From Sulfobacillus thermotolerans (lineage in GTDB: Bacteria > Bacillota > Sulfobacillia > Sulfobacillales > Sulfobacillaceae): a stretch of DNA of 64,000 bases. The DNA lies in contig CP019454.1 of assembly GCA_002951815.1 (NCBI GenBank), positions 1,612,001-1,676,000 of the forward strand, given 5' to 3'. Numbering within the stretch: the stretch's first letter is position 1; every line of letters starts with the position of its first letter. Of this stretch, positions 27,185 through 64,000 are shown piece by piece. The notes under the pieces are model-generated. The model saw only the letters and a program-made list of their open reading frames with translations, ran no database searches and was not told the origin of the DNA. A program made the translations under genes and the position numbers.

Positions 27185-27325
27185 AGCATCTCCTCGGGAT
27201 GAGTGTATGTCAGAATGGTATCGCAGTTTGAGGTAAAGGACAACCGCTATTCGGCGCGACAGTGTTAGGGGAGCGCAATCAATACGATGATATCAATCGA
27301 GCTCAAAGGAGTTCATCAAATAGTT

Positions 27326-27367: not shown

Positions 27368-27416
27368 GTCCTCCTTTCGGATTGACGTATGGACGTATTT
27401 CCTCCGTAATATATCT

Positions 27417-28518: not shown

Positions 28519-28539
28519 GACGGGGTCGTTGACGCATGC

Positions 28540-28656
28540 GACCTTATACCCATAAATCAGGAATCAGCTGCTCAGGCTAAACGGGATGCCCTAGAACGTC
28601 TTCGTCGAGCCCGTGAAGTGGAAATCGGTTTGGCGACCATGGGGCGGCGTTCCTAA
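28540..28656 (+). pseudogene. 3' fragment of the split small gene
   Basis: From GACCT (28540-28544) an open frame of 38 codons runs to TAA at 28654-28656. It has no start codon or ribosome site of its own. The sequence is rich in Ala, Arg and Glu (AAQAKRDALERLRRAREVE), as in a charged helix. It continues in frame from the fragment at 25087. It begins 7 bp after the right end of the tnpB element. Identity unknown. Confidence 0.5.
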
Positions 28657-28813
28657 ATTTAGGGAATTACGGATTGTGCACATGCAGCAGGGCGTCGAGT
28701 TCCTTGGAAGCTAAAGGAGAGGCAGTCATACCAATAGGCTCATTGCTCTATATTTTCGGAGCCGTCCTCCTTTATTGGTAGAGCCAACTTTGTCCCTTTG
28801 AAATGCCTGATCA

Positions 28814-29770: not shown

Positions 29771-29905
29771 GGCTCTTCTGACCCCCTTGAAACACAGACC
29801 CAGTGGGAACCTGCGCTTTAAGCATGTCTTTCCTGCTGTTAGTACGAATCTTCCACGGTAAACGGTACCTATAAGAGAACAGGGATGCTGACTGCCGCTA
29901 TCCTC

Positions 29906-29946
29906 AAAAGCATCGCCACATTCTTGAGATACAGAACGTGGCGATG
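29906..29946 (-). terminator. Terminator after the ABC exporter operon
   Basis: On the minus strand CATCGCCACGTTCT pairs with AGAATGTGGCGATG, followed by CTTTTG. It lies 10 bp after the stop of the second exporter gene. Confidence 0.75.
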
Positions 29947-29955
29947 GAATTGGTG

Positions 29956-31842
29956 TTAAACGGCAACCGAACTGCTTGGTTTGAATTGGCTGTTATAGAG
30001 TTCTGCATAAAATCCCTTTAAGGCCAACAACTGCTCGTGCGTGCCTTGCTCCACGACTTTGCCATGATTCATCACTAAGATCACGTCTGCGTCTTGGATT
30101 GTGGAGAGACGGTGTGCGATAACAAAACTGGTCCGTCCTTGCATCAGGTGATCCATGGCCTGTTGAATCAGGATTTCGGTCCGCGTGTCGACACTGCTAG
30201 TCGCTTCGTCCAAAATGAGAATGGCTGGATCGGCTAAAATGGCGCGAGCGATCGTCAACAGTTGCTTTTGGCCTTGTGAAATATTAGAGGCTTCCTCGTT
30301 AAGCACCGTATCATATCCTTCGGGGAGCGTGCGAATAAAGTGGTCGGCCTGCGCAGCTTTGGCAGCTTCGACAATCTCAGCATCCGTAGCCCCTTCGCGT
30401 CCGTAACCAATGTTGTCGCGAATTGTGCCGTTGAATAGCCACGTGTCTTGCAAGACCATGCCAAATAAGTGATGCAACTGATCACGTGATATCTGTGTGA
30501 TATCGATGCCGTCGATGAGAATGCGGCCGCTGGTCAGTTCATAGAAGCGCATCATCAGGTTGACCAGTGTGGTCTTACCAGCCCCGGTCGGGCCAACAAT
30601 GGCCACCGTTTCGCCAGGGCGCACCTCGAGGTTCATATCCTCTATCAATGGGGTGTCAGGCTGATAGCGGAAACTCACGTGCTCAAATTGAATGTGCCCC
30701 CGGGGGTGCGTAAGGACCTCCGTATCCTGAACATCGTCTACTTGTTCAGGTTCATCAAGAATTTCAAACACGCGTTCAGAGGAGGCGATAGTCGATTGGA
30801 TTACGTTGGAGATACTGGAGAGTTGGGTAATGGGCTGCGTAAATTGGCGCGCATATTGAATGAACGCCAGGATATCTCCAATCTGAATACGACGGCGAAT
30901 GACAAGAATGCCCCCAATGACGCTGACAAGCACGTAACCAATATTGCCAATAAAGTTCATGAGCGGCATGATAATGCCGGTGATGAACTGGGCTTTCCAT
31001 GACGCGTCATATAAGCGCTCATTGATTTCGTCAAATTTGGTCAACGCCTTGTCTTCATTGCCGTAAGCCTTGACGATGAGGTGTCCGGTGTACATCTCTT
31101 CAATGTGGCCATTGAGCTCACCGAGTCGGCGCTGCCGACTTAAAAAGTATGCTTGGGACCTTACGGCAATGGTTCTCGTGACATAAATGCTAAGCGGCAG
31201 GGTAATGACAACCGTTAAGGTCATGAGGGGACTGATCGTCAACATCATAACAATCACCCCAAGAAAGGTGATGACCGCCTGAATTAACTGCGTCAGGCTT
31301 TGCTGCAGGGTGCTGCTGATGTTGTCGAAGTCGTTCACAAACCGGCTCATGATTTCCCCGTGGGGATGCTTGTCGAAATAACTAATGGGCAATTTGGTCA
31401 ACTTTTCGTTGACTTGCTTACGCAAGTCATAGACTGCCCGTTGAGCCACACCTGCCATCACGTATTGTTGAAAATAGTTAAACAGTGAGCTGAATAAATA
31501 CAGTCCTCCGAGAATCCAGACGAGATGGCCAATTTGCTGAAAGTTGACGCCGCCTCCTGGCATGCCCAGCAATTTGCGGCGGATGCCGTCAAACAGATCA
31601 GTCGTCGCATCTCCCATAATTTTAGGGCTGATAATGGAGAATACAGTCCCCAAAATCGTCGCAATCAAAACAAGGAGTAACCGCAACCAATAGGGGCGGA
31701 AATAGACCAGCAAGCGCATCAAGGTGCTCTTAAAATTCTTGGGTTTTTGCACAATCATGGCCATACCTTGAGGGCCGCCACCAAACATTCCGGGTCCGCG
31801 CCCCGCAGGGGAGGATGGGTGGTGTTTGTCTTCAGTGCTCAT
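29956..31842 (-). CDS. Heterodimeric ABC exporter half-transporter (catalytic Walker B half)
   Basis: The 628-residue protein has six hydrophobic helices (about 45-340) followed by an ATPase domain. Walker A is GPTGAGKTTLVN, the signature is NISQGQKQLL (non-canonical), and Walker B ends ILILDEATSSVD, with the catalytic Glu present. With its partner (next entry) it forms an asymmetric exporter of the BmrCD/LmrCD or YheHI kind, probably for drugs or peptides. The start overlaps the partner stop by 4 bp. An N-terminal 40-residue Gly/Pro-rich extension precedes the first helix. Confidence 0.9.
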   Translation of the reverse strand: MSTEDKHHPSSPAGRGPGMFGGGPQGMAMIVQKPKNFKSTLMRLLVYFRPYWLRLLLVLIATILGTVFSIISPKIMGDATTDLFDGIRRKLLGMPGGGVNFQQIGHLVWILGGLYLFSSLFNYFQQYVMAGVAQRAVYDLRKQVNEKLTKLPISYFDKHPHGEIMSRFVNDFDNISSTLQQSLTQLIQAVITFLGVIVMMLTISPLMTLTVVITLPLSIYVTRTIAVRSQAYFLSRQRRLGELNGHIEEMYTGHLIVKAYGNEDKALTKFDEINERLYDASWKAQFITGIIMPLMNFIGNIGYVLVSVIGGILVIRRRIQIGDILAFIQYARQFTQPITQLSSISNVIQSTIASSERVFEILDEPEQVDDVQDTEVLTHPRGHIQFEHVSFRYQPDTPLIEDMNLEVRPGETVAIVGPTGAGKTTLVNLMMRFYELTSGRILIDGIDITQISRDQLHHLFGMVLQDTWLFNGTIRDNIGYGREGATDAEIVEAAKAAQADHFIRTLPEGYDTVLNEEASNISQGQKQLLTIARAILADPAILILDEATSSVDTRTEILIQQAMDHLMQGRTSFVIAHRLSTIQDADVILVMNHGKVVEQGTHEQLLALKGFYAELYNSQFKPSSSVAV

Positions 31843-33566
31843 GCAATGACCTCCTCAGCATGTTGCGAACGGACAATGTCTTGGTAGATAGGGCATGTAG
31901 CCATGAGTTCGCGGTGCGTTCCAATGCCAACCAGTTGGCCTTCGTCGAGCACAATAATTTGGTCCGCGTCGATGACGGTGCTGACCCGCTGAGCGACAAT
32001 CAGGACCGTTGAGGTATCAAGCTCATTTTGCAAGGCCCGTCGCAGCTTTGCATCGGTTTTAAAATCTAAGGCCGAGAAGCTATCGTCAAAGATATAAATT
32101 TCTGGTTTGCGGACCAGAGCCCGGGCAATGGACAAACGTTGTTTTTGCCCGCCCGACAAATCAGCGCCGCCCTGAGAAATGATGGTGTCAAACCCTTGGG
32201 GCATTTCCGCAATAAATTCTGTGGCCTGGGCAACGTCAGCTGCATGCTCTACAGCCCAATCGGATGCGTCTTCGTCGCCATAGCGAATGTTGTCGGCAAT
32301 CGTCCCAGAAAACAACACGGCTTTTTGCGGCACAAAGCCAATTTTTTGGCGTAGGACATGCTGATCCATATCCCGAACATCGATGCCATCGACCAGCACG
32401 CGTCCGTGGGTGACATCGTCAAACCGGGGAATTAAGTTGATAAGGGTCGTTTTGCCTGCGCCCGTTCCGCCAATCACCGCGGTAATCTGTCCGGGATGAA
32501 GTGTAAATGAAATATGGGAAAGCACCATAGATTCAGCCCCAGGATATTGAAAACTGACATCCTCAAACACCACTTCGCCCGTGGACTGTGTAGGCAATGT
32601 GGGGACGGCCGGATCGAGAATCGTGGGTTCGATATCTAAGACTTCGTTTATTCGTCGTGCAGATGCCTGGGCCCGAGGCACCATGAAGAACATGGCGGAG
32701 ACCATCATGACCGAGAACATTATCTGTGTAACGTATTGGATAAACGCCATCAAACTTCCGACCTGCATGGCGTTATCGTTAATCAGTTTGCCTCCAAACC
32801 AGATAATCGCCAAAGTCGAAAAGTTGATAATCAGCATGAGCAGTGGCATCAAAGCGGCCATGATCTGATAGACATGGATGGAAATATCAGTTAGTTCGAT
32901 ATTCGCCTCGTTAAAGCGATGGACCTCGTAGCGGACTCGTTGGAATGAGCGGATGACGCGTACGCCGGTCAGGTGTTCTCGCAAGACGCGGTTTAATTGG
33001 TCAACTTTCCCCTGCATGGCACGAAAGAGTCCAACACTCCGGCCAAGGACGGCATAAATGGCAAGACCTAACACGGGCATGATGACCAATAAGATTAGGG
33101 ACAGACGCGCATCGGTGTAAATGGCCATGATGATGCCGCCTAGGGCCATTAATGGGGCCATGACCATCATGCGCAAGAGCATGTTGACGAATTGCTGAAC
33201 TTGCATAATATCATTCGTGGTGCGAACGATGAGAGACGATGTGCCCAATGTGTCAAACTCTTTCAGCATAAAGGTTTCGACATGAGCAAAGACTTTGCGG
33301 CGCACAATTTTTCCGAAGCCTGCGGAGGCTTTGGAAGATAACAGGCCGGCTGCGACGGAGCACACCACGCTAAACACCGTCACGGCCATCATGAACTCGC
33401 CGACATGGATGATGTAGGGGATGTTGCCTTTGACCACGCCGTTATCCACAATTTTGGACATTAATTCCGGCAGGTATAAGGTCGTTAACGATTGCAAAAA
33501 TAGCAATACGAGTATCCAGATGACCGACTGACGATACGGACGGAGAAAACGAAGGATGCGACGCAT
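31839..33566 (-). CDS. Heterodimeric ABC exporter half-transporter (degenerate ATP site half)
   Basis: The 575 residues include six helices (about 15-310) and an ATPase domain with Walker A GGTGAGKTTLIN and a canonical signature DLSGGQKQRLSIARAL. Its Walker B reads YIFDDSFSALD, with Asp where the catalytic Glu normally lies. The canonical signature here complements the Glu-bearing partner, so one of the two ATP sites should be active, as in other heterodimeric exporters. It directly follows the marR gene; stop and start share one base. Confidence 0.9.
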   Translation of the reverse strand: MRRILRFLRPYRQSVIWILVLLFLQSLTTLYLPELMSKIVDNGVVKGNIPYIIHVGEFMMAVTVFSVVCSVAAGLLSSKASAGFGKIVRRKVFAHVETFMLKEFDTLGTSSLIVRTTNDIMQVQQFVNMLLRMMVMAPLMALGGIIMAIYTDARLSLILLVIMPVLGLAIYAVLGRSVGLFRAMQGKVDQLNRVLREHLTGVRVIRSFQRVRYEVHRFNEANIELTDISIHVYQIMAALMPLLMLIINFSTLAIIWFGGKLINDNAMQVGSLMAFIQYVTQIMFSVMMVSAMFFMVPRAQASARRINEVLDIEPTILDPAVPTLPTQSTGEVVFEDVSFQYPGAESMVLSHISFTLHPGQITAVIGGTGAGKTTLINLIPRFDDVTHGRVLVDGIDVRDMDQHVLRQKIGFVPQKAVLFSGTIADNIRYGDEDASDWAVEHAADVAQATEFIAEMPQGFDTIISQGGADLSGGQKQRLSIARALVRKPEIYIFDDSFSALDFKTDAKLRRALQNELDTSTVLIVAQRVSTVIDADQIIVLDEGQLVGIGTHRELMATCPIYQDIVRSQHAEEVIA

Positions 33567-34036
33567 CAGTGAGCTCCTCCTGTGGGCAAGCTTTGGTGTT
33601 CGTGATAATACGCCAGCACCTGGCCTAGTAAGTGCGCCAAGGTGGTGCTTTGTTCGGGACCAAGATAATCAATCAGTCCGTCAAACGCGTCGGATACGGC
33701 TTGGCGCGCCTGAATATAAGCCTCTTCGCCATGGGATGTCAGACGGACGCGACTTACCCGCCGGTCTTCTTGATCGATGTGGCGTTCGACCAGACCGCGT
33801 TCCTCCATTTCGTTGATGAGTTGAGTGACGGTTGGGGTGCTTACACGGAGTTGGGTACTGATAGCGCTGACCGGTATCCCAGAGCCGTCGCCTGGACTAT
33901 CTTTCTTAATGCAAAATAAGGCGCGGGCATCACTGGGACGTGGACCAGTCCCGTGCCAATTTAACCAGTTGAGCTTACGGACCCGCATGAACGCTTCAAA
34001 CAGTTGTTGGCTGATTGGATTATCACTGATGGGCAT
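33566..34036 (-). CDS. MarR-family transcriptional regulator
   Basis: This winged-helix regulator has 156 residues. The DNA-binding region contains ISTQLRVSTPTVTQLINEMEERGLV and the wing RRVSRVRLTSHGEE. It leads the operon with both ABC exporter genes, so it most likely represses them and itself in response to a toxic ligand. A matching inverted repeat overlaps its promoter (see 34061-34101). It starts at ATG 34036, and its stop touches the exporter gene start. Confidence 0.88.
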   Translation of the reverse strand: MPISDNPISQQLFEAFMRVRKLNWLNWHGTGPRPSDARALFCIKKDSPGDGSGIPVSAISTQLRVSTPTVTQLINEMEERGLVERHIDQEDRRVSRVRLTSHGEEAYIQARQAVSDAFDGLIDYLGPEQSTTLAHLLGQVLAYYHEHQSLPTGGAH

Positions 34037-34060
34037 TGCTGGCCTCCGACAACTATTTTG

Positions 34061-34101
34061 TTAGGCAACCTAATTATAGAGAATAGAGTCTGTGGGGTCA
34101 A
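34061..34101 (-). promoter_or_regulatory. Promoter and operator of the marR-ABC operon
   Basis: Reading the minus strand, -35 TTGACC (34101-34096) and -10 TATAAT (34078-34073) are 17 bp apart. An inverted repeat TTAGG-CAA-CCTAA (34061-34073) covers the end of the -10 and the expected start of transcription. TTAGG/CCTAA half sites of this kind are typical MarR operators. Binding there would block transcription, as expected for autorepression. Confidence 0.8.
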
Positions 34102-34177
34102 TTCCGCATAGTCATGAAGATTCGTACGTAAGAATACTAAAAGTCCAGGTATTGGAGCAAACGGGGAGAACTGTGAC

Positions 34178-34543
34178 ATGTCGAAGAATGTGCGCCTAAC
34201 AAGTCTTTATGTCTCGTTTGGAACCGCGGTCATGACGACAGTCGCACTGTCTCAAGTTACCTCCAATTTGATGGTGCTGTTTGTGATATTGATGGGCGCA
34301 ACAGGTGCTGTGTTGGGGTTTTGGGCTACTTTAACGAAACATCTTGATGCTATGGCCTCCATGAGTGGTGCGACAGCTGGGGGAGTCATGGGGGCTTTGT
34401 TAAGCATGGCTATTACCGTTACGTGGTTGCATCCGATGCACAGTCATCAGGGGATGATGATTATGGGCGATACGATGGCCCAGATGGCCGGAGCGGCTTT
34501 GGCGGGGTTTTTTGTTCCCGAAGCGTCCCACTCGTCGAGATGA
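34178..34543 (+). CDS. Small membrane protein of unknown function
   Basis: The 121-residue protein has four predicted hydrophobic helices and starts at ATG 34178 with GGGGAG upstream. The stretch between the third and fourth helices is Met/His-rich (LHPMHSHQGMMIMGDTM), which could bind a soft metal such as copper, but this is speculation. It is transcribed away from the marR operon and ends at a terminator shared with the convergent merR-like gene. No family was recognised. Confidence 0.7.
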   Translation: MSKNVRLTSLYVSFGTAVMTTVALSQVTSNLMVLFVILMGATGAVLGFWATLTKHLDAMASMSGATAGGVMGALLSMAITVTWLHPMHSHQGMMIMGDTMAQMAGAALAGFFVPEASHSSR

Positions 34544-49996: not shown

Positions 49997-51028
49997 ATGC
50001 AGGCATGGAAGCAGCAAGGCGTGCGGATCAGCCGTTCCAAATGGTTGGGGGCGCTGATTGTGCTCTTGTTGACAGGAATGGCTGTGGTGCTGTTCTTTCA
50101 CAAAATTCCTGTGCATGCCATTGAGGCAGCATGGGACCGTCTGTCCTGGCCGGTGCTCCTGTGGGCGCTTGGATGCCAGATCGTGTTTGTCGAATTGCGT
50201 ACGTTGCGTTTTTCCAGGATGGCAGGGTCTTTGCAGGCCACAGCCCAAGAGGTGGCGGCGCGACCGTACCAGTGGTTTGGGCCCACCGCCGCTTATTCCA
50301 TGACGTGTAGCGTGTTTCCCGGGGGCGTGGGGGAACTTCTGTTGCCGCTCTATTTGAAGCCCTATGGAGTGCCAGGAAGCGCCAGCCTAGGGCTGGCGGT
50401 GGGTGGACGGCTATTTGACGTGGGATGGTCGGTTATTCTCGCCTTCGTCTTTAGCCTGTGGCTGTTGCCCCAACATGGTTGGACAACCGTTCGGTTCTCT
50501 CTTATTGTAGGGGCCATCGCCATGCTTGCGGTGATTCTTTTGATCCGGTTGGTTAACGGGGAACGCCTGATCCAACGAGTGGAACAGCGTCATTTGCCGC
50601 ACTGGATGGGGAAAGTCATCACCGCGACGTTTCGCGCTCAAGCGGTGATGACGCGCTTATCGTGGATGGACATGGTGGTCTTGTCTTTAATCACGATCGG
50701 CATGAAGATATCGAGCACGTTATTTTATCAAGTGATTGCCCATGGTTTGGGGTATTCTGTAGGGTTTTTCCATATTGGAGCTGCCATGATGTTTTTTTCT
50801 TTGTTCATGGTCTTTCCTTTGCAGGGCGTGGCGGGATTTGGCACCACCGAAGCGTGGTGGATGTTAGCATTAACGCTCGTAGGAACGCCGCTGAAAGAGT
50901 CTATAGTTTTAGCGCTAGCGTTTCATGTGCTAAATCTTCTTTACGTCTCAGGTCTAGGCGGCATTTATATGCTGGCGCGCTTGCGTCCTGCTGTGGGTAT
51001 GATCCACAGGAATGCCAAAGTTAAATAG
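49997..51028 (+). CDS. UPF0104/LPG-synthase-type membrane protein (flippase-like)
   Basis: The 343 residues form about eight hydrophobic helices of the lysylphosphatidylglycerol synthase transmembrane domain family (YbhN/AglD-like). Family features include the polar RTLRFSRMAG region, SVFPGGVGELLLPLYLK and VFPLQGVAGFGTTEAWW. The soluble aminoacyltransferase domain of MprF is missing. In glycan clusters such proteins are thought to help move lipid-linked sugars. The next gene is a dolichol-phosphate-mannose-synthase-like transferase, which supports that. ATG 49997 follows AAAGGAGG. Confidence 0.8.
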   Translation: MQAWKQQGVRISRSKWLGALIVLLLTGMAVVLFFHKIPVHAIEAAWDRLSWPVLLWALGCQIVFVELRTLRFSRMAGSLQATAQEVAARPYQWFGPTAAYSMTCSVFPGGVGELLLPLYLKPYGVPGSASLGLAVGGRLFDVGWSVILAFVFSLWLLPQHGWTTVRFSLIVGAIAMLAVILLIRLVNGERLIQRVEQRHLPHWMGKVITATFRAQAVMTRLSWMDMVVLSLITIGMKISSTLFYQVIAHGLGYSVGFFHIGAAMMFFSLFMVFPLQGVAGFGTTEAWWMLALTLVGTPLKESIVLALAFHVLNLLYVSGLGGIYMLARLRPAVGMIHRNAKVK

Positions 51029-51042
51029 GAGGGTTTGTGGTT

Positions 51043-52074
51043 ATGGTCGCTGTTCGGGTGGTCTTCGCAGCTTTTCTTGTGATGACGTTGGGGTTAATGG
51101 GATTTTTAGAGAATTGGCGCAGCAAAATTGGTTGGAGTTTGGCGGTCGTATTTGGTGTTATTGCGTTTGAACCGGCGTTGGTTGCCCCGATTGGGCGTCT
51201 TTTACGGAATCATAATCTCACCATTATTGATGGCGTCGCCATTTTGCTTGTGCTGATGGTGGTGTTGCTGTTTGGAGCCTTGCGTGCGGCCAATGGGAAA
51301 TCCGCCAAGTCTTTAAATATTATCAACCAGCTCGTAGACGAACAGGCGTTTGACGACTTTGACAAGGATTATGGGGCGGTTCAATTTAATCCCATTACCG
51401 TGGTCATACCGGCTTACTACGAGGCGGCGAATATTGGCAAGGTCCTCGAAAGTATTCCCCGTGTGGTGCATAACACGGCGGTGTCTGTATTGGTTGTGGT
51501 CGATGGGAGTCCTGACGGGACAGATAAAATTGTCAAAGAACATGGAGATTTTGCGTCTTATGTACGGGTCAATCGGGGGCAGGGTGCAGCGTTGCGCGTG
51601 GGCTATCACCTAGCTATTGAACATGGCGCGCAATATATCGTGACTCTCGATGCCGACGGGCAGTATGATCCCGAAGAAATGCGCGACTTAGTCGAACCCG
51701 TGTTAAATGACGAAGCCGATTACGTGCAAGGCTCACGCCGTATGGGTAATTATGTAACAGATGATATGATTCGCGTGTTGGGAGTTTATTGGTTTAACTG
51801 GCTCATTGGCATATTGATTAAGCAAAAGATTACGGACTCATCCAATGGATTTCGGGCTATTAAAGCGCAAGTGCTTAAAGATTTGTCGTTAAGCGAAGAT
51901 CAGTACCATGCGGCCGAACTGCTCATTTTATCCATGCGTAAAAATTACCGAGTCATTGAGCGTCCGGCGTCTATGTATCCACGGACATCGGGTCATACCA
52001 AAAAAGGTCATAATTTAACCTATGCTTACCATTATGCGCGTGTCATTTTCAAGAGCTGGCTCCGCGCCATATGA
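51043..52074 (+). CDS. Family 2 glycosyltransferase, polyprenyl-phosphate sugar synthase-like
   Basis: The N-terminus has two or three hydrophobic helices (about 1-90), then a GT-A domain. Motifs are VVIPAYYEAANIGKVLESIP, VVVDGSPDGT, the metal-binding LDADGQYDPEEM and DSSNGFRAI. This is the order of dolichol/undecaprenyl-phosphate mannose or glucose synthases. It would load a sugar on a lipid carrier at the inner face of the membrane. I prefer ATG 51043 (9 nt after AGGAGGG) to GTG 51037. It overlaps the next gene by 4 bp. Confidence 0.85.
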   Translation: MVAVRVVFAAFLVMTLGLMGFLENWRSKIGWSLAVVFGVIAFEPALVAPIGRLLRNHNLTIIDGVAILLVLMVVLLFGALRAANGKSAKSLNIINQLVDEQAFDDFDKDYGAVQFNPITVVIPAYYEAANIGKVLESIPRVVHNTAVSVLVVVDGSPDGTDKIVKEHGDFASYVRVNRGQGAALRVGYHLAIEHGAQYIVTLDADGQYDPEEMRDLVEPVLNDEADYVQGSRRMGNYVTDDMIRVLGVYWFNWLIGILIKQKITDSSNGFRAIKAQVLKDLSLSEDQYHAAELLILSMRKNYRVIERPASMYPRTSGHTKKGHNLTYAYHYARVIFKSWLRAI

Positions 52075-54635
52075 TCTCAAGCCCCATTCGGTCCCAGCGT
52101 GTGTGGGACCGTAAAGACATTTGGGCTTTGGCGTTCTTGGTAGGGTTTCCTATGTTAGTGGCCGTCAGTCTTAAGCCGGGACTTTTGACGCTACACGGGG
52201 ACAACCTCATTCAGAACTATCCCTTGCGGATTTTGGTGGGTAAAATCCTCCGCGAAGGGCATTTGCCTTTGTGGGATCCATATATTTGGAGTGGCACGCC
52301 GCTTTTAGCGGGATTTAATGCAGGCGCAGCATATCCTTTGACGTGGCTGTTTGCGCTATTGTCCGGACCTTGGGCATGGACGTTGACCATTGGCATTAGT
52401 TACGCGGTCGCCAGCACCGGCTTTTACACGTTTTTGCGCGTACTCGGTCGCAGTGTGTGGGCCAGTTTGTTAGGGTCATGGGCTTTTGCGTTCGGGGGGT
52501 TCATGGCCGCCCAAATGGTGCACCTCGAAACCTTGCAAGGCGTCGGATGGTTGACCTGGGTGGCCGTGGCCTTATATCAAATAGCCCACGCCTCGACGCC
52601 TCGGATGAAATGGGCGTGGGTGTTAGCGTTAGGGGTGTTTGCGGGGGCTGTCATTTTGGTCGGCAGCCCTGAACCCATGGCTTATGGCGCAATTTTTTCT
52701 GCCATTTTGGCCGCGTTTTTTGTTACCAGCACGGCTTACAAGGGAGCGACGATGGCCGGATATGGTGTAGCCGCCGCCATTGCTTTATTGCTGGGGGCTG
52801 CTCAGTGGGTGCCTGGGGAGGCTTTTATTCATCTATCGCAGCGGTCCCACGCCAGTTTTCAATTTTTCGGGTCCATGTCCGTTCCTCCCGCTGATGCGGT
52901 GTTATTGTTCTTTCCCTATATTTTAGGTGGGTATCACCGTTTTCTTGCGATGATGTACTATGCTGGGCGGTTTAACTTGCCCGAGGTGTCCAGCTACGTG
53001 GGAATTTTGCCGCTGTATGCCGCAGTGCGGATGTTTCCTGTATGGGCACCGCCCGCGGTAAGACGTCTTGTGACCATGTTCTATACGCTCGCCATTGTGG
53101 GGGCTGTCCTAGCGCTGGGGAAATATACGCCCTTGAGCCACCTCTTGTTTCATGTGCCCGTGTATAACGGGATTCGCGCCCAAAATCGCAATCTCTTTAT
53201 GCTTGATTTTGCGCTGGCGGCTCTGTTTGCTTTGTGGATTGACAACGTCCGTGATACGGCTTTTGCGGCGGACCGCCAACGCCTGACCAAAGTCTTTGGG
53301 GTGGTACTCGCCAGCGTTTTTGCGTGGGGCTTGTGGGAGGCGACGTCGCGCCTTTTTTCCTTCATGGTGCCGTATTTGATCGTGAGCGTGTTGCTGGGCG
53401 CCGCCGCGGTGGCTGTGATAATAGGGTTGCCGCGCGTGCCCGAGCGTTGGCGGATTGGGATTTTGGCTCTGTTTACCGCTGTGGATTTGGGATTGTATGA
53501 TGCAGGACAATATTGGCTCAATGTACCCAAACCGTCTGTCGCCACGGGGACCGGATATCTCGTGGCCAAAGCCCGGGCTGAAGTTCCGGTAAGGACCCGT
53601 TATGCTCTGTATAATCCGGACCTGAATGACTACCGGCAGGTTGATGCTATTGGGCAGCCTGACCTCAATATTTTAACGGGGCTGCCCAGTTTTCAGGGCT
53701 ATGGGTCACTCGTATCCAGCCGTTATAACAATGCGACCGGAGCGCATTTGCAAGCGACGTTTTCGCCTACGGTTCTGAATCTGCCCCTTATCAATCAGTT
53801 GAATGTTAGTACGTTGTTTACGGTGCCGTCGTCGTTTATTCAGAGGGTACCTTTATCATGGCATCCCCGTACACACGTTGCAGAGCCCTTGGCAACCGCC
53901 GAGAAGCCATGGTTTTTTGGGAAAATGCTTGACGTGACGGCGCTGCACTTGGACATGGTAAAGCCCTTAACAGCGTCAAAAGGACGCTGGCGAGTGGGAC
54001 TTGTGGTATCTGGGTCTGATAAAGAAAAGTGGCTGACACCGCAGGTACGGTTCTCAGGGCAAACCGTCACGTTGTCATGGCCAGCGACACCTATGGCCGG
54101 ACTGGCGATTCATAGTCCTGGTCATCGACCGATTGATGGGGCCATGATTGTAACGTCCGAGGGCAAGGCCTACCGGATCACGGGGCCTCTACAGAATATG
54201 ATAGCATTTCCCAAGTGGCGATTTGTGGGTACCATTGGGGCGTTTGGGGTGTTCCGCAATACAAAGACTCAGGGCATGGTGTGGCTTACAGGTCCAGGCA
54301 AGGCGGAAATCGTTCACCAAACGCTTCAAGCTCAAGATACTGTCGTCGTGTCTGCGCCGCGGGCGACGACGTTAATCCGTAGTGAAGCGTATCAGCCCGG
54401 TTGGACGGCGACCATCACGGGGCCCCATCTCGATAAAACAGAGCGTGTAGAGCCCGAAGGAGTGATTCAGGCCGTGGCGATACCAAAAGGCCGATACCAA
54501 GTCATCTTTCGGTATCGGCCCCGCAGTGTTCGTATAGGGCTATGGGGTTCTGGCGTGGGCATTGCGGTGGTCGTGCTAGGCGCTCTTACGCTATGGGCTA
54601 CACGCCGCCGCAACATGTCACGTACGATGATATGA
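52071..54635 (+). CDS. YfhO-family membrane protein (GT-C type glycosyltransferase-like)
   Basis: The 854-residue protein has about twelve or more hydrophobic helices up to residue 490, then a large outside domain rich in beta strands, and a final helix near the C-terminus (IGLWGSGVGIAVVVLGALTL). HGDNLIQNYPLRILVGKILR and LPLWDPYIWSGTPLLAGF near the N-terminus match the YfhO family. GT-C proteins use lipid-linked sugars to decorate polymers or proteins on the outside. The preceding transferase is a plausible source of such a donor. Overlap with that gene is 4 bp. Acceptor unknown. Confidence 0.82.
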   Translation: MISSPIRSQRVWDRKDIWALAFLVGFPMLVAVSLKPGLLTLHGDNLIQNYPLRILVGKILREGHLPLWDPYIWSGTPLLAGFNAGAAYPLTWLFALLSGPWAWTLTIGISYAVASTGFYTFLRVLGRSVWASLLGSWAFAFGGFMAAQMVHLETLQGVGWLTWVAVALYQIAHASTPRMKWAWVLALGVFAGAVILVGSPEPMAYGAIFSAILAAFFVTSTAYKGATMAGYGVAAAIALLLGAAQWVPGEAFIHLSQRSHASFQFFGSMSVPPADAVLLFFPYILGGYHRFLAMMYYAGRFNLPEVSSYVGILPLYAAVRMFPVWAPPAVRRLVTMFYTLAIVGAVLALGKYTPLSHLLFHVPVYNGIRAQNRNLFMLDFALAALFALWIDNVRDTAFAADRQRLTKVFGVVLASVFAWGLWEATSRLFSFMVPYLIVSVLLGAAAVAVIIGLPRVPERWRIGILALFTAVDLGLYDAGQYWLNVPKPSVATGTGYLVAKARAEVPVRTRYALYNPDLNDYRQVDAIGQPDLNILTGLPSFQGYGSLVSSRYNNATGAHLQATFSPTVLNLPLINQLNVSTLFTVPSSFIQRVPLSWHPRTHVAEPLATAEKPWFFGKMLDVTALHLDMVKPLTASKGRWRVGLVVSGSDKEKWLTPQVRFSGQTVTLSWPATPMAGLAIHSPGHRPIDGAMIVTSEGKAYRITGPLQNMIAFPKWRFVGTIGAFGVFRNTKTQGMVWLTGPGKAEIVHQTLQAQDTVVVSAPRATTLIRSEAYQPGWTATITGPHLDKTERVEPEGVIQAVAIPKGRYQVIFRYRPRSVRIGLWGSGVGIAVVVLGALTLWATRRRNMSRTMI

Positions 54636-54648
54636 CGCATAGTCTCGA

Positions 54649-55542
54649 TTACGAAAAGGTTTGGAAGTCTTCCCACACGGCTTTGAGGCCCTCAGGTAAG
54701 TCTACTTGAGGCGCCATGCCTAAGCTTTTGAGACGAGCAGTATTGACGATTACCGCGGGCATTTCGCCAGGCATCGCGGCAATGTGGTCGACCTCAATAG
54801 GTCGTCCGACGGCTTCAGAGGCCAGTTCACACAAGGTGTTGACGCTGACGGAACGGCCAAAGCCCGTCGTCAACGGGCCTGTAATATTCTTGGTTAGGGC
54901 GTTGACAAAGACCTCAACCACGTCGCCCAAGTAAATATAGTCGCGTACTTGCTCACCATCTCCATAGATATGCACAGGGCTTTGCCCCAGCGCTGCGCGC
55001 ATGAGGCGTGGGATCATACTGTCTTTGTGCATCATCCCGGTCCCATAAACATTGGTCAAACGTACGGCACACCCGTAAATACCATAGGAAGCCGTGTAAG
55101 CCGAGATGAGCATTTCCGAGGCAGCTTTGGTGGCCCCATAGGGCGTTAGGGGCTGCAAAGGCATGTCCTCATTGATGAGGCGAGAGCCTACATTGCCAAC
55201 CACGGCATTGGACGAGGCAAATACGAAATTCTTAACGCCAAGTTGACGGGAACGCTCTAGCAAGTCGGCCGTCATCTTCAGGTTTGTTTCATAGACTTGA
55301 TATGGAATGGGGATGGACTTTAGCACGGAGGTAAACCCAGCCAAATGGATCACGGCGTCCGTCCCTGGGGTTAAACTTTGTTCGAGAATAGTGCGGTCAA
55401 GAAGGTCCCCTACGACTTGCTGCACGTTAGGGTGTCGGGATGGGACTAAATCCGCAACGACCACGTCCATCCCCATCGCCATCAGGCGGGCTACTAGGGC
55501 GTGCCCGATAAAACCTGAGCCACCAGTCACTAAAATGCGCAA
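54649..55542 (-). CDS. NAD-dependent sugar epimerase/dehydratase
   Basis: A short-chain-type nucleotide-sugar enzyme of 297 residues. The NAD-binding motif GGSGFIGHALVARL starts at residue 7 and the catalytic YGATKAASE gives the YxxxK pair. VRDYIYLGDVVEVFV is the family substrate region. UDP-glucose 4-epimerase or a related epimerase is likely; the exact sugar cannot be told. The TTG start (55542) follows AAAGGAG. It converges with the YfhO-like gene, 13 bp apart. Confidence 0.85.
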   Translation of the reverse strand: MRILVTGGSGFIGHALVARLMAMGMDVVVADLVPSRHPNVQQVVGDLLDRTILEQSLTPGTDAVIHLAGFTSVLKSIPIPYQVYETNLKMTADLLERSRQLGVKNFVFASSNAVVGNVGSRLINEDMPLQPLTPYGATKAASEMLISAYTASYGIYGCAVRLTNVYGTGMMHKDSMIPRLMRAALGQSPVHIYGDGEQVRDYIYLGDVVEVFVNALTKNITGPLTTGFGRSVSVNTLCELASEAVGRPIEVDHIAAMPGEMPAVIVNTARLKSLGMAPQVDLPEGLKAVWEDFQTFS

Positions 55543-57520: not shown

Positions 57521-59076
57521 AAGACAAATACGTGGTGGATATCGGTAATTTGATTTAAATCCCGGACCAGGTCATCGGGAACCGTCTGGTCAAGCGATAA
57601 AATCATCAGGGCTTGGTGATTATTCTCCTGCCGGCCCAAATGTAAATTACCGATATTGATGCCGTACTGACCGACTAGGGTGCCTACTTTGCCGACTACG
57701 CCGGGTGCATCGTCATGCACTGTCATCAGGGCAATGTCTGGCCATGGCAGATCAACAGCCACCCCATTAATGCGCCGCAGACGGGGTACGTGATTTTCTA
57801 AAGACACTTCGGTCGTGGTTTCAGGATGGCCCTCGAGCCGGAGTGCCAACGTCGGCAATGCGTTTGCGTCGCGTTCTTCGACGAGCAGTTTGAGACCTTG
57901 TTCTTCAGCTTTGACGAGTGCGTTGACAGCGTTCACACGGTCGGCTAGCTGTTCGTTTAAAATTGCGGCCAAAACCGTTTGCTTGAGCCATGGCAACGCA
58001 TTCTTGGGAATAGGGCCTTTTAAGCTCAAAACAATAGGCGCATGCAAGGTGCGATGCATTTGGGCAAAAATGCGGCCGACAATGCGAGCTCCCTCATCAA
58101 GCATGCCGAACTCATCGGGGGTTAAGGGGGGCACAGGCACGTTGACGATATTGGGGGGGGTTAACCCTTGCAAGGCGGCGATAACCCCTTGCGCTGTCAT
58201 CACGGCCACGCCAGTCATGGCTTCATGCGTGCTGCCTCCAAGGTGGGGCGTTAACACCGCCCGGGGATGACGGAATAGAGGAAAATCGGCGGGCGGCGGC
58301 TCTTGGCTGAACACATCCAACCCGACGCCAAGCAGGTGACCGGTGTCCATTAAGGTCGCTAAGGCTTCTTCATCAATCATTCCACCGCGCGCCACATTGA
58401 TGACGATAGCGCCAGCGGGAAGAGTGGACAACAAGTCAAGGCCGATTTGAGGTCCTGACTTCGGGGTATGCAAGGTCAGGATATCGGACACCGGCAGAAG
58501 CTCTTCGAGGGTTTCCATACGGGTAACATTGTGTGCTTGAAAAATCTCATCGGCGACAAAGGGGTCATAGGCATACACCTTCATGCGGAAACCATTGGCA
58601 ATGCGAGCGGCTTCACGGCCAACCTTTCCAAATCCGATAATGCCTAAACGCCTTTCATGGAGCTCGCCCCCTAGAAATTTCTTTCGGCTCCACTCCCCGC
58701 TGCGAACATGAGCATCACCGAGGTGGACGTTGCGCAAGATGGCAAGCATGTGTGCGAAGGCCTGTTCGGCGGCCGCTACCGCGTTAGCGCCTGGGGCATT
58801 GATGACGGCAATGCCCAGTTCGGTGCAAGTCTTTAGATCCACGTTGTCGACACCCGAGCCTGCCCGTGCGACGACTTTGAGCCGAGGATGACCGATTAGG
58901 GTCTCACGGGGGAGGCGATGTGCACTGCGCACAATCACGGCATCATAGTTGTCGATGATTTCGGGAAGCTGTTCTTTGGGGAGCAGGTCATAGGCATCGA
59001 CATCGGCTACTTCGCGCAGGAGATCAATGCCTTCTTGCCCAAGGGTTTCAGTAATTAAGATGCGGGGCCTCGTCAT
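57517..59076 (-). CDS. serA: D-3-phosphoglycerate dehydrogenase
   Basis: SerA oxidises 3-phosphoglycerate in the first step of serine synthesis. From ATG 59076 it has 519 residues: a substrate/NAD domain (about 1-310; GIIGFGKVGREAARIANGF, and catalytic histidine in LTPHLGGSTHEA), an intervening domain, and a C-terminal ACT domain (about 445-519) typical of allosteric serine control. It shares one base with the preceding aminotransferase gene; GGAGG is 10 nt upstream. Both lie behind a T-box leader. Confidence 0.95.
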   Translation of the reverse strand: MTRPRILITETLGQEGIDLLREVADVDAYDLLPKEQLPEIIDNYDAVIVRSAHRLPRETLIGHPRLKVVARAGSGVDNVDLKTCTELGIAVINAPGANAVAAAEQAFAHMLAILRNVHLGDAHVRSGEWSRKKFLGGELHERRLGIIGFGKVGREAARIANGFRMKVYAYDPFVADEIFQAHNVTRMETLEELLPVSDILTLHTPKSGPQIGLDLLSTLPAGAIVINVARGGMIDEEALATLMDTGHLLGVGLDVFSQEPPPADFPLFRHPRAVLTPHLGGSTHEAMTGVAVMTAQGVIAALQGLTPPNIVNVPVPPLTPDEFGMLDEGARIVGRIFAQMHRTLHAPIVLSLKGPIPKNALPWLKQTVLAAILNEQLADRVNAVNALVKAEEQGLKLLVEERDANALPTLALRLEGHPETTTEVSLENHVPRLRRINGVAVDLPWPDIALMTVHDDAPGVVGKVGTLVGQYGINIGNLHLGRQENNHQALMILSLDQTVPDDLVRDLNQITDIHHVFVF

Positions 59077-60227
59077 TATCGGTACGCCTCCTTTTGAATG
59101 GCCAGATTGTCGTGCCATACTTTCCAAGCTGCCTGCACCCCGTCAAGACCGCGGGGGAGAAGATGGGCTAGGGTGCTGAGTCCCTCAAACAATTGATTGG
59201 GCATCAGCGCGCCTACGTGGCCGATACGCACCATTTCATGATGCCATGGACCCATGCCACCGGCGATTTGTAGACCTAATACGGCTGTCTGATTCCGGAA
59301 TTCTTGAGGCTCAAAGCCTTCTGCAACGTGCAGGGCTGTCACGGTGGGAGACGCGACTGCGGGGTCTACGGCGGGCTCCATGCCAGCGGCGGCACCAAAA
59401 GCATGGGTCATCTGCGCCATAAGGCGGTGCCGCGCGAGACGGGCCTCGACGCCTTCTTGTTCGAGCAGATTAAGGGCCTCTTCGAGGCCGTTCCACAATG
59501 AGACGGCGGGAGTGTAGGGGAATTGCCCGGCCAAATATGGTTGCAGGTCAAAGAATAGCCGACCCGGCCGGTCTTTTAACACGTGCTCACGAGCCCGAGC
59601 TGAGAGCGCTAAGATGCCGAGACCGGGAGGGCACATAAAGCCTTTTTGAGATGCGGCGACAATGACGTCCACATCGTCTTGCTCAATCGTCAGAGGCACC
59701 GATGGCACACCACTGATGCTATCGACAATTAATAACGGGCGATTGGGGTGGTGTTTGAGCAGTTCGGCTAATTGTGTCACGGGATTCAACACGCCCGTCG
59801 AGGTTTCATTATGCGTCACGAGGATCCCTTTGATGTGGTGTTCTTCGTCAAGCGTTTCGATAACATGCTGGGGGTCAAACGCTTGCCCATAGGGCACGCG
59901 GATATGACGCACCTCGACGCCCATTTTCTCGGCGATATCGACAAAGCGTTCACCAAAGGCGCCTGTGCTCACGCCAATGACACGATCGCCGGGATTAAAA
60001 AAGTTTTGGACAGCGGTTTCCAACGCACCCGTGCCGGTGGTTGGGATTACCGCGACGCCTCCATCTGCTCCGACCTTAAAGAGGTCTTGAAGCTGCGCGG
60101 TGACATGATTCTTGACCCGTGTAAAGACCGCGCCACGGTGATCTGACATAGCTTGTTGCATGGCGAGGTTAACACTAGGGGGGACAGGGGTGGGGCCTGG
60201 TAAAAGAATTTGTGGTGGATACATCAT
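59076..60227 (-). CDS. Class V aminotransferase (phosphoserine or serine-glyoxylate type)
   Basis: This PLP enzyme has 383 residues from ATG 60227 (GGAGG 8 nt upstream). It shows LLPGPTPVPPSVN, THNETSTGVLNPV, DSISGVPSVPL and the lysine in AASQKGFMCPPGLG, which binds PLP. It belongs to the alanine/serine-glyoxylate branch, not the classical SerC. Next to serA and behind a T-box, it very likely supplies the phosphoserine aminotransferase step, as in several thermophiles and archaea. It begins the serine operon. Confidence 0.85.
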   Translation of the reverse strand: MMYPPQILLPGPTPVPPSVNLAMQQAMSDHRGAVFTRVKNHVTAQLQDLFKVGADGGVAVIPTTGTGALETAVQNFFNPGDRVIGVSTGAFGERFVDIAEKMGVEVRHIRVPYGQAFDPQHVIETLDEEHHIKGILVTHNETSTGVLNPVTQLAELLKHHPNRPLLIVDSISGVPSVPLTIEQDDVDVIVAASQKGFMCPPGLGILALSARAREHVLKDRPGRLFFDLQPYLAGQFPYTPAVSLWNGLEEALNLLEQEGVEARLARHRLMAQMTHAFGAAAGMEPAVDPAVASPTVTALHVAEGFEPQEFRNQTAVLGLQIAGGMGPWHHEMVRIGHVGALMPNQLFEGLSTLAHLLPRGLDGVQAAWKVWHDNLAIQKEAYR

Positions 60228-60272
60228 TGGGGATTCCTCCTTAAGATTATGGGGTTTATTTTTATCACGCAA

Positions 60273-60491
60273 AACAAAAAACGCCCCTAAATTATTAGGG
60301 ACGGTAGTCACCGCGGTGCCACCCTATTTGGCAGATCGATAGATTCTGCCCGCTCTTTGGCTTTTAACGCAGCTCCGCGATCAACTCATCGCTGATGTCC
60401 TCCTGGGTGGAATCGGGTTCGGGCAGCACATCGGGTTCCATCCTACCGACTTTCTAGAGAACCGCCCGGCTCTTCCCATTCATTGGCCGTT
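60273..60491 (-). promoter_or_regulatory. T-box leader of the serine biosynthesis operon
   Basis: On the minus strand the conserved AGGGTGGCACCGCG motif lies at 60325-60312. A terminator hairpin follows (CGTCCCTAA with TTAGGGGCG, 60303-60282) and a U-run (60281-60275). These are the antiterminator and terminator features of a T-box riboswitch. The upstream 130 bases are G/C-rich and structured, as for Stem I. A UCC serine codon followed by A at 60411-60409 is a candidate specifier, which I cannot prove by eye. Uncharged tRNA-Ser would then turn on the operon. Confidence 0.9.
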
Positions 60492-60677: not shown

Positions 60678-61208
60678 GTGAGAAAATGGTCATTCCTAGT
60701 TGCAGGGATTGCCTTGGCAGGTACGATGTCAGGGTGCGGACTCTTTGCAGGTCCCCCTCAGCAAAAAGTTCCTGCCATGGTGATACCGTCACCAAGTCAT
60801 TCCCAAAGTGTGTGGATGCACGCCAATGCGGCACAACACACCGTGGATTTGACGGTGATTGCCGGGTATGCCAGTCAGGGCTTTAATCTTAATGGTACGG
60901 CCAACGGCGCGATGTGGGTCACAGTGCCAGAAGGCTGGCATGTGGTGATTGAATTTACGAATGATAGTGGGCTTGCCAATTCATTGGCGGTTGTGCGGGG
61001 ACCGCAAAGTACACAAGCGCTGTTTCCCGGTGCAGGAACACCGCCGTTGGCGAAAGGAATTTCCCAGGGCCAACGGCGAACATTGAGTTTTGTGCCGACC
61101 ATACCTGGCTCATTTCGTTTGGCCAGCTTAGTGCCAGGCCATGAATCATCAGGGATGTGGGCTCATTTCGTTGTGACACCATCGGGCCAACCCTCGTTGC
61201 GGCTGTGA
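60678..61208 (+). CDS. Sulfocyanin-like lipoprotein with an incomplete copper site
   Basis: From GTG 60678 (AGAGGA at 60665-60670) the protein has 176 residues. The signal ends in TMSGC, a lipobox, so it should be a lipoprotein at the outer face. The rest resembles sulfocyanin (SoxE-like blue copper) proteins: FNLNGTANGAMWVTVPEGW and a C-terminal PGHESSGMW. In sulfocyanins the ligands are His, Cys, His, Met. Here the first His position reads Asn (GLANSLAVV) and the Cys position Ser (RLASLVPGH), while the second His and Met remain. It probably does not hold a normal blue copper. Its stop overlaps the following molybdoenzyme gene by 4 bp. Confidence 0.75.
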   Translation: MRKWSFLVAGIALAGTMSGCGLFAGPPQQKVPAMVIPSPSHSQSVWMHANAAQHTVDLTVIAGYASQGFNLNGTANGAMWVTVPEGWHVVIEFTNDSGLANSLAVVRGPQSTQALFPGAGTPPLAKGISQGQRRTLSFVPTIPGSFRLASLVPGHESSGMWAHFVVTPSGQPSLRL

Positions 61209-63235
61209 ACACGCCACACGACGAGGTCGTGCATCAAGTCTGCCCGCATGACTGTTATGACACGTGTGGTCTCGATGTCAAACGCGTGAACGGGCGCATT
61301 ATGCGCATCACAGGGGCGAAAGACCATCCTATCACGCAAGGTTTTGCCTGCTTAAAAGTTAATCGCTATCTTGAACGACTGAACCATCAAGATCGCGTGC
61401 TGTTTCCCTTGAAACGCACTGGCCCCAAGGGCTCAGGGAATTTTCAGCGTGCCTCGTGGGATGAGGCCCTCGATGCGATTGGCACAAAAATGCAGCATAT
61501 CGTTCAAACATATGGTGGCGAAGCCATTCTTCCTTATAGTTTTTCAGGCAACATGGGGGTGTTGAGCGAGGCGTCCATGGATCGGCGCTTTTTTAACGCC
61601 TTGGGTGCCTCACAACTGGCGCGGACGATCTGTACAGCCTCAGCGGATATGGCTTTGCGCTGGGTGTATGGGCAAAGGCTAGGGCCTGATCCAGAAACCA
61701 TTGGGCGGGCTGCATTAATCCTCTTGTGGGGAAGCAACCCGGTTGTGACTAATGTTCATGAAATTCCTTTGTTAGATCAGGCGCAATCGCAAGGCGCTGA
61801 CATTTATGTGGTCGATCCGCTTTACACGGACACCGCCGCCCGTTATGGTCACCATATCGACCTTAACCCTGGCAGCGATGTTGCTTTAGCGTTAGGTCTC
61901 GGTCGGTATTTAGTGGCCACGGGACAATATGACAAATCCTTCGTTGCCCAGTATGCGCAAGGATTCGACGCCTATCTCGAACGCGCGTGGCCGTGGACCT
62001 TGGATGAGACAGCCCGGGTTACTGGTGTGCCTGTGGCGACCATAGAGCGTTTAGGCGAGCGCCTGGCGAGCGTGCATCCTTTGCTCTTGCGTACCGGGTA
62101 TGGTGTACAAAGACAGGAGCATGCGGGGGAAGCTGTCTGGGCGATTTCTGCGTTGTCCGTGATCACCGGATCATACCGGGATGTGGGGGGCGGACACTTG
62201 CTAGGGAATGGCGATGCTTTTCCCCTTAACTGGGACCGATTAACACGCCCAGAATTGCGACCTGGAAATCCCCGCACGATTAATATGGTACAGTTGGGAG
62301 ATGCCTTAACCCAATTGGATGATCCCCCTGTTAAAGCTTTGATTGTGTATAACAGCAACCCCGCCGCGACGGCGCCGGATCAAGGGCGGGTTCTGGCGGG
62401 ACTACGGCGTGAGGATTTGTTTACGGTCGTGCACGAGCAAATGTTGACGGACACGGCTCAGTATGCGGATTGGATATTGCCCGCGGCGATGGCCTTTGAA
62501 ACCCTCGATCTCCATACGTCGTATTGGCACCGTTATATTCAGTTAAGCCCGCAAGCTGTATTGCCGGCAGGCGAAGCGGTATCGAATACCGAATTTTTTC
62601 GGCGTTTGGCTAGAGCCTGTGGATTTAAGGACGCTCCATGGTGTCAGGATAGTGATGAAGATCTGATTCGGCAAGCCCTTGATACACAGCATCCGTGGCT
62701 TCATGGCATTACGTGGGAAAGTCTGCAAAAACGTCCGGTGCAAAAAGTTAACCTTAAGGTGTCGGACCGTCCATTTTTAGATACTAAGGACCACAACGGT
62801 CCTCTCTTTAGGTTGTACCCTTTACCTGTGTTGCCGTTTACTCCACCTCAGACGCCAGCAGAATATCCTCTTGTTCTGATTACGCCTTCGCGCAAAAATA
62901 CGATTAAGTCGAGTTTTGGTAATAATCCCCGGTTGCTTATTCGAGAGCCTAATCCCACCATTTATGCGCATCAAGAGGATATAGAGCACTTGGGATTGCA
63001 AGATGGGCAGCGCGTACGCGTCGAAAGCCCGACAGGCCATGTAATTTTGCAGCTGCGCGGCAGCAAGCAGGCACGACCCGGCGTCGTCTTGAGTTATGCC
63101 GTACGTTGGAACCAAGACGGGGGAGGCGTCAATATTAATCAGTTGACGAGTCAAACGCTGTCAGACTTTGGTGGGGGGGCCACGTTTTACAGTACGCGGG
63201 TGAGGATAATTCCCTGGGAAAATGAGGTCGAGTGA
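61205..63235 (+). CDS. Molybdopterin oxidoreductase (DMSO reductase superfamily)
   Basis: This Mo/W-bisMGD enzyme has 676 residues from GTG 61205. The N-terminal [4Fe-4S] motif is CPHDCYDTCGL with a fourth cysteine in GFACLKVNRYL. The cofactor-binding core includes ILLWGSNPVVTNVHEIPLL and VYNSNPAATAPDQGRV, and the C-terminal MoCo-binding domain has LVLITPSRKNTIKSSFGNNP. No Tat signal is visible, so it appears cytoplasmic. No UGA/Sec is seen; the Mo ligand may lie in TICTASADMAL but is unassigned. Substrate unknown. It is coupled to the sulfocyanin-like gene. Confidence 0.85.
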   Translation: MNTPHDEVVHQVCPHDCYDTCGLDVKRVNGRIMRITGAKDHPITQGFACLKVNRYLERLNHQDRVLFPLKRTGPKGSGNFQRASWDEALDAIGTKMQHIVQTYGGEAILPYSFSGNMGVLSEASMDRRFFNALGASQLARTICTASADMALRWVYGQRLGPDPETIGRAALILLWGSNPVVTNVHEIPLLDQAQSQGADIYVVDPLYTDTAARYGHHIDLNPGSDVALALGLGRYLVATGQYDKSFVAQYAQGFDAYLERAWPWTLDETARVTGVPVATIERLGERLASVHPLLLRTGYGVQRQEHAGEAVWAISALSVITGSYRDVGGGHLLGNGDAFPLNWDRLTRPELRPGNPRTINMVQLGDALTQLDDPPVKALIVYNSNPAATAPDQGRVLAGLRREDLFTVVHEQMLTDTAQYADWILPAAMAFETLDLHTSYWHRYIQLSPQAVLPAGEAVSNTEFFRRLARACGFKDAPWCQDSDEDLIRQALDTQHPWLHGITWESLQKRPVQKVNLKVSDRPFLDTKDHNGPLFRLYPLPVLPFTPPQTPAEYPLVLITPSRKNTIKSSFGNNPRLLIREPNPTIYAHQEDIEHLGLQDGQRVRVESPTGHVILQLRGSKQARPGVVLSYAVRWNQDGGGVNINQLTSQTLSDFGGGATFYSTRVRIIPWENEVE

Positions 63236-63236
63236 T

Positions 63237-64000
63237 ATGTGGATAGAATGTGTGCCCAATTTTTCAGAGGGTCGGCGTCTGGACGTCATGCAAGCCATCG
63301 CGGAGGCGGCCGCTAGTGCGGGAGCTCGGGTGTTGGGAATGGAAGGGGATTATGACCATAATCGGTCGGTGTTGACATTAGCCGGGGAGACCGCGACTGT
63401 CGAAGAGGCCGTACTGCGTGCGGCGTTTGTGGCGGTGTCGCAAATTGATTTGCGTCGGCACGTGGGAACTCATCCGCGGATGGGCGCTATCGATGTCATT
63501 CCTTTCATTCCCTTAGAGGGTACGAGCATGGCGGATGCCGTCCAGGCGGCGCAGAGGGTGGGCGAGCGGTTGGGGCGTGAGCTTGGACTTCCCGTGTATT
63601 TGTATGAGCACGCGGCGACGATTCCACAGAGGCGTAACTTGGCCGATGTGCGGCGCGGAGAATTTGAGGGTCTGGCAGCGCGAATGTCCAGTGATGTGCC
63701 GGACTACGGCCCCTCGTCTCCCCATCCGAGCGCGGGGGCGGTAGCAGTGGGGGCGCGCAGGCCGTTGATTGCCTTTAATGTTTTTTTAAACACGACGGAT
63801 ATTCAAGTCGCGCAGGCCGTAGCTAAAGCAGTGCGTAATTCCAGCGGAGGGCTCGCAGGGGTCAAGGCATTGGCCATGGATACCGTCTCGCAAGGACAGG
63901 TACAGGTATCGCTCAATTTGGTCGATTATCCTAAGACATCTTTGCCGCGGGCTGTGGAAATGGTCCGGCAAGAGGCGCAGCAGTATGGCGTTAGTGTGGC
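63237..64000 (+). CDS. ftcD: Glutamate formimidoyltransferase, partial at window end
   Basis: The frame begins at ATG 63237, 8 nt after GAGG, and runs off the window end after about 254 codons. The start MWIECVPNFSEGRR, then LEGDYDHN-like MEGDYDHNRSVLTLAG, HVGTHPRMGAIDVIPFIPL, and ARRPLIAFNVFLNT match the formiminotransferase N- and C-subdomains. It transfers a formimino group from formiminoglutamate to tetrahydrofolate in histidine breakdown. The cyclodeaminase part, if any, would lie outside. It follows the molybdoenzyme by one base, so it may share its transcript. Confidence 0.9.
   Translation, partial: MWIECVPNFSEGRRLDVMQAIAEAAASAGARVLGMEGDYDHNRSVLTLAGETATVEEAVLRAAFVAVSQIDLRRHVGTHPRMGAIDVIPFIPLEGTSMADAVQAAQRVGERLGRELGLPVYLYEHAATIPQRRNLADVRRGEFEGLAARMSSDVPDYGPSSPHPSAGAVAVGARRPLIAFNVFLNTTDIQVAQAVAKAVRNSSGGLAGVKALAMDTVSQGQVQVSLNLVDYPKTSLPRAVEMVRQEAQQYGVSV

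Follow-up and report, generated by a model that had tools for sequence, protein, structure and literature searches.

The locus and its genes

In Sulfobacillus thermotolerans Kr1, a lipoprotein gene is followed by a molybdoenzyme gene and by the gene of the glutamate formimidoyltransferase FtcD, which reaches the end of the window, i.e., of the whole stretch of 64,000 nucleotides that was analyzed. The genes and main features of the locus are:

59076..60311, minus strand: divergent class-V aminotransferase, conserved syntenic neighbour on the other side (PF00266, synteny)
60678..61208, plus strand: gene of a 176-aa lipoprotein of the sulfocyanin (SoxE) family, with a GTG start and lacking the first-His and Cys ligands of copper (ORF, PF06525)
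60678..60737, plus strand: signal peptide and lipobox to the lipid-anchored Cys20 (sequence, ortholog alignment)
60804..61205, plus strand: predicted cupredoxin domain, residues 43-176 (AlphaFold2 model, structure comparison)
61205..63235, plus strand: molybdopterin oxidoreductase, 676 aa (PF04879, PF00384, PF01568)
63237..64000, plus strand: glutamate formimidoyltransferase FtcD, continuing beyond the window end (TIGR02024, conserved neighbourhoods)

The lipobox of the lipoprotein is MSGC, with Cys20 as the lipidated residue, and the surrounding GCGLFAGPP is invariant in the alignment of seven orthologs. The protein matches PF06525 (SoxE) over the whole domain with 61.4 bits (E 9e-17; curated cut-off 21). 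An earlier note on this DNA had recognized a sulfocyanin-like lipoprotein from TANGAMWVTVPEGW and GHESSGMW; both open reading frames were confirmed at the coordinates it gave, both motifs were found and the PF06525 E-value places this likeness beyond chance. The score against the NCBIfam sulfocyanin equivalog TIGR03094 (54.7 bits) is below the cut-off of 168.4. However, intact bacterial relatives also miss it (47.8 and 69.4 bits), and therefore this cut-off fails to separate ligand-less from intact proteins.

The molybdoenzyme belongs to the DMSO-reductase superfamily, with Fe4S4, molybdopterin and dinucleotide-binding domains as well as a metal-ligand residue. Its Fe4S4 motif comprises Cys13, Cys17, Cys21 and Cys49. 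Cys143, which aligns with the cysteine of the CIGNTA motif of acetylene hydratase (2e7z), is likely the Mo/W ligand. In formate dehydrogenase (FdhF), a catalytic His follows the metal-ligand Cys/SeCys; here, Thr or Ser follows Cys143 in 10/10 homologs and the FDH model gives 234.7 bits for a cut-off of 666, so this assignment was rejected. Acetylene hydratase, which has a functional Asp next to its second Fe4S4 cysteine, was also rejected, since the expected Asp is replaced by Tyr18 (motif CPHDCYDTC). The in-window part of FtcD alone reaches 304 bits with TIGR02024 (cut-off 221). No export signal is visible in the sequence of the molybdoenzyme. This enzyme and FtcD are cytoplasmic, apart from the externally anchored lipoprotein. 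The molybdoenzyme-FtcD association (61205-64000) is conserved family-wide, suggesting a one-carbon or histidine-degradation context for the CPHDCYDTC enzyme.

The lipoprotein and molybdoenzyme genes are adjacent and on the same strand in all near-complete genomes of the genus (7/7); the search for this pair in related genomes, proposed by the earlier note, thus found it conserved across the genus. The coupling of the two proteins that it put forward was not supported, since their adjacency is no better kept than that of other genes: in two complete genus relatives, 43/43 and 32/33 testable neighbouring pairs are intact. The lasting partner of the molybdoenzyme is FtcD. The enzyme was found in 26 of 41 related genomes, and in sister genera it retains its FtcD neighbour but has no such lipoprotein in front. 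The 4-bp overlap between the lipoprotein stop and the molybdoenzyme start, also pointed out earlier, exists with the GTG start at 61205, but it depends on the start chosen (other in-frame open GTG starts lie at 61157 and 61229) and is not generally conserved. Likely molybdoenzyme starts of relatives are mostly 27-98 bp past the lipoprotein stop, a GTGA overlap also being an option in one of them (L046). Therefore, the adjacency of this pair says little about function, since the whole neighbourhood is conserved, sister genera lack the lipoprotein and the overlap is not general.

Elsewhere in the window, the genes of two blocks (25563-34543 and 49997-55542) mostly lack a reciprocal best hit in the corresponding syntenic region of the two complete genus mates. 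Among the genes of the latter block are those of a glycosyltransferase and of a membrane protein of 854 residues, together with an epimerase-like gene.

Copper-ligand positions and their conservation in Sulfobacillus

The register of the copper-site positions was obtained by aligning a profile of 46 family members with solved cupredoxins including rusticyanin, and auracyanin (6kol) gave an identical register. The positions of interest are:

60978..60980, plus strand: Asn101, at the first-His position (rusticyanin His85; profile alignment; ortholog codons AAT/AAC)
61125..61127, plus strand: Ser150, at the Cys position (rusticyanin Cys138; profile alignment; ortholog codons AGC/AGT)
61140..61142, plus strand: His155, kept ligand position (rusticyanin His143; profile alignment; codons CAT/CAC)
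61149..61151, plus strand: Ser158, shared by the ligand-less clades A, B and D but absent from the intact relatives
61155..61157, plus strand: Met160, kept ligand position (rusticyanin Met148; profile alignment)

The lipoprotein thus retains only two of the four type 1 copper ligands (His, Cys, His, Met). The profile alignment bears out the earlier reading that Asn replaces the first His and Ser the Cys, while the later His and Met are kept, and the Cys-x4-His-x4-Met spacing is preserved at Ser150/His155/Met160. The Ser that replaces the ligand Cys is Ser150 of LASLVPGH and neither Ser of GHESS. Ligands located elsewhere in the fold, which would have spoken against this reading, were not found. 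In the alignment of the seven orthologs, every mature domain is free of Cys, and the only invariant His are His155 and His41, the latter in the linker, adjoining a part modelled with low confidence by AlphaFold2. Substitute ligands were therefore rejected, the mature domain being devoid of Cys and the domain of a second conserved His.

The AlphaFold2 model has a pLDDT of 90-99 across residues 51-176. It superimposes on rusticyanin (Z 12.7, 117 residues, rmsd 3.5) and on auracyanin 6kol (Z 12.3, 101 residues, rmsd 1.9 A). The modelling suggested by the earlier note thus yields a confident prediction, by AlphaFold2 and structure comparison, that the lipoprotein adopts a cupredoxin fold.

All seven near-complete Sulfobacillus genomes carry an ortholog that reads NSHM at the four ligand positions, and the proteins of the six genus mates share 54-68% identity with that of Kr1. 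Among the named members of the genus set are Sulfobacillus benefaciens AMDSBA1 and three further metagenome genomes. No ortholog was found in one further genus genome, which is 61% complete, and none of the NSHM type was found outside the genus among 42 genomes of the order; a scan of genome contigs gave four matches, all within the genus. The codons of Asn101, Ser150 and His155 show only synonymous variation among orthologs, and dN/dS is ~0.03 to 0.13 for ortholog pairs with unsaturated dS. The lipoprotein is under purifying selection across the genus. Sequencing error and decay are excluded, since the residues are found genus-wide, their codons vary synonymously and dN/dS is low.

Ligand-less clades of the SoxE family

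The full HCHM set is kept in 24 of the 46 aligned SoxE domains. Four clades deviate from it, two of them found in the genus besides clade A and one in a sister genus:

Clade A, NSHM: this lipoprotein; seven genus orthologs
Clade B, NSQM: Sulfobacillus; membrane-protein fusion
Clade C, HSDL: sister genus
Clade D: Glu first, then Asp/Asn, Asp/Asn/Gly and Leu/Val/Ile/Gln

In the tree, each of these clades forms one side of a strongly supported branch. The best tree splits the ligand-less clades and groups clade B with intact relatives (100/96 support), and it therefore speaks against a single origin of all of them; the AU test narrowly fails to reject a joint ligand-less clade at 5% (p 0.05-0.06), and gives p 0.43 for A with D. 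Two or more independent ligand losses would be the best estimate from these sequences, although this is not proven. Judged by position alone, the overlap in derived positions of clades A and B does not reach significance (p 0.11).

Intact SoxE proteins usually have Leu or Met at position 158, which immediately precedes the Gly-Met of the ligand loop. In clades A, B and D, 25/25 sequences have Ser there, as against none of the 24 intact ones. The clades are named after their ligand letters, and Ser158 is the only independent sign of a rebuilt pocket. Its recurrence with ligand loss points to a former copper site that may have been rebuilt.

Clade B proteins are membrane proteins of ~560-575 residues with a C-terminal SoxE domain (L082:2192-3880, L056:3754-5439, L126:5678-7366, L130, L131, L132, L133 and L136). 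Their membrane part shares 35% identity with a stand-alone gene that, in two sister genera, adjoins an intact fusion of cytochrome c with sulfocyanin. This fusion (L066:5037-5897, L067:4648-5505) is a lipoprotein in which a CxxCH cytochrome c-like domain is joined to an intact HCHM sulfocyanin domain, and it lies ~4 kb or less from the molybdoenzyme-FtcD pair in these two genera. Small CxxCH lipoproteins were also seen near the molybdoenzyme-FtcD or fusion region at L068, L071, L079 and L081.

The clade D lipoprotein, which has none of the four copper ligands (0/4) and is itself predicted to be a cupredoxin, is encoded by the first gene of an operon of Kr1 (L053:5132-9959, i.e., C1:3120131-3124958 of its own genome). 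The genes of an AcoP-like cupredoxin, COX2, COX1 and COX3 follow. The AcoP-like neighbour matches AcoP of Acidithiobacillus (PDB 7z3b; E 1e-20), and H, C, H and M are visible in its sequence. The operon has the same gene order as the iron-responsive operon Sulth_0449 to Sulth_0453 of S. thermosulfidooxidans, Sulth_0453 being equated with the clade D gene by gene order alone. Addition of a stronger iron oxidiser lowers the normalised counts of Sulth_0453, annotated "Sulfocyanin (SoxE)", from 7722 to 623 (PMC6315122).

The clade C loci of the sister genus (L023:1495-1998, L116:1480-1962) have a conserved, unannotated neighbourhood (L134, L135). Elsewhere in the phylum, SoxE was found in only 2 of 249 sampled genomes. 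A 26-bit PF06525 match within a murA-like ORF (L004) was judged to be due to chance, and a PHROGs search gave no match.

Possible roles of a probably copper-free sulfocyanin

The lipoprotein is probably a copper-free sulfocyanin, a lipid-anchored cupredoxin of the outer face retained for binding or docking. The type 1 site would have become a polar pocket in which Asn101, Ser150 and Ser158 lie beside the kept His155 and Met160. Judging from type 1 site chemistry, the loss of the Cys thiolate and of one His would preclude blue copper as well as sulfocyanin-like electron transfer. The retained surface motifs, and the proteins found together with clades B and D, suggest that the scaffold and the former copper-site loop (HExSGMW) may still bind something, most likely a protein of the respiratory chain, a small ligand being the less likely partner. 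The location of clade D in a COX operon and the fusion of clade B to a membrane protein support such a binding or docking role. The molybdoenzyme and FtcD would share the operon with the lipoprotein by position only.

Of the two options left by the earlier note, a redox-silent derivative or a different metal site, the evidence leans towards the former. A different, weaker site would require that His155 and Met160, aided by Asn101, Ser150, Glu156 or His41, bind Cu(I) or another metal that the protein carries or delivers outside the cell, as CupA does. His155, Met160, Glu156 and His41 are indeed invariant in the seven orthologs, the cupredoxin fold has been turned into a copper chaperone before (CupA, PMC5646241), and purifying selection on the scaffold is equally expected if a different metal is bound. 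However, CupA uses Cys and Met, whereas the lipoprotein has no Cys and Met160 is the sole conserved Met of the site; clades B and D have also lost His155 and yet have Ser158; and no copper-handling gene is recognisable among the annotated neighbours. We thus consider such a site unlikely. Still less plausible is a single functional unit formed by the lipoprotein and the molybdoenzyme, in which the lipoprotein would be, e.g., a sensor or an assembly factor. The same-strand adjacency in 7/7 genus genomes and the possible 4-bp overlap in Kr1 fit this idea, but equally conserved neighbouring pairs, the overlap that is not general, the location of an enzyme without export signal on the other side of the membrane from the lipoprotein, and its persistence with FtcD and without the lipoprotein in sister genera all argue against it. 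A single base change separates each of the two substituted codons from a ligand codon (AAT from CAT, AGC from TGC), as a recently broken electron carrier heading for loss might show. This last explanation is extremely improbable, given that the same residues are fixed in seven species down to 54% identity, with low dN/dS and an intact lipobox and fold.

The sulfocyanins of Sulfobacillus have been treated as blue copper proteins (PMC4062416, PMC6803676, PMC6315122), and genome papers count their genes as evidence for the iron-oxidation route in this genus. Three genes of Kr1 have been reported as sulfocyanins (PMC6803676). Our analysis also found three SoxE proteins in this strain, only one of which (the paralog at L054:7440-8006) has all four copper ligands. 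Several proteins counted as electron carriers of iron oxidation thus probably carry no copper, and a check of the ligands changes the choice of gene to test as the carrier. No report of ligand loss in Sulfobacillus sulfocyanins was found in the open-access literature; cupredoxins without copper residues are already known elsewhere, e.g., the early nodulin-like proteins (PMC10048054). More tentatively than the docking role itself, we propose that the acidophilic iron oxidisers of Sulfobacillus may have turned several of their sulfocyanins into subunits that lack copper and recur around the respiratory chain. The sulfocyanin credited with iron oxidation would then not be the electron carrier, this role falling to the AcoP-like copper neighbour or to a cytochrome, and the copper-free cupredoxin would dock or assemble the complex. 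Such a natural set of copper-free cupredoxins would lend itself to studying what this scaffold does without its metal.

Comparison with known systems delimits what is particular to this lipoprotein. It shares with sulfocyanin (SoxE, PF06525) of Ferroplasma and Sulfolobus the domain match, the cupredoxin fold and the FNLNGT-like and VPGH..GMW motifs, but Asn and Ser replace the first His and the Cys and there is no type 1 copper site. Its fold is also like that of rusticyanin from Acidithiobacillus ferrooxidans, whose His143 and Met148 are kept as His155 and Met160, whereas His85 and Cys138 are replaced and the lipoprotein is lipid-anchored. The early nodulin-like proteins, plant phytocyanins without copper-binding residues (PMC10048054), are likewise a retained family with a cupredoxin-type domain and lost ligands; however, they are eukaryotic and cell-wall related, and their ligand loss is of separate origin. 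Finally, CupA of Streptococcus pneumoniae, a membrane-anchored cupredoxin handling Cu(I) (PMC5646241), is likewise a cupredoxin fold at the membrane that is no type 1 electron carrier, but it binds copper through two Cys and Met, whereas the lipoprotein has no Cys for this purpose.
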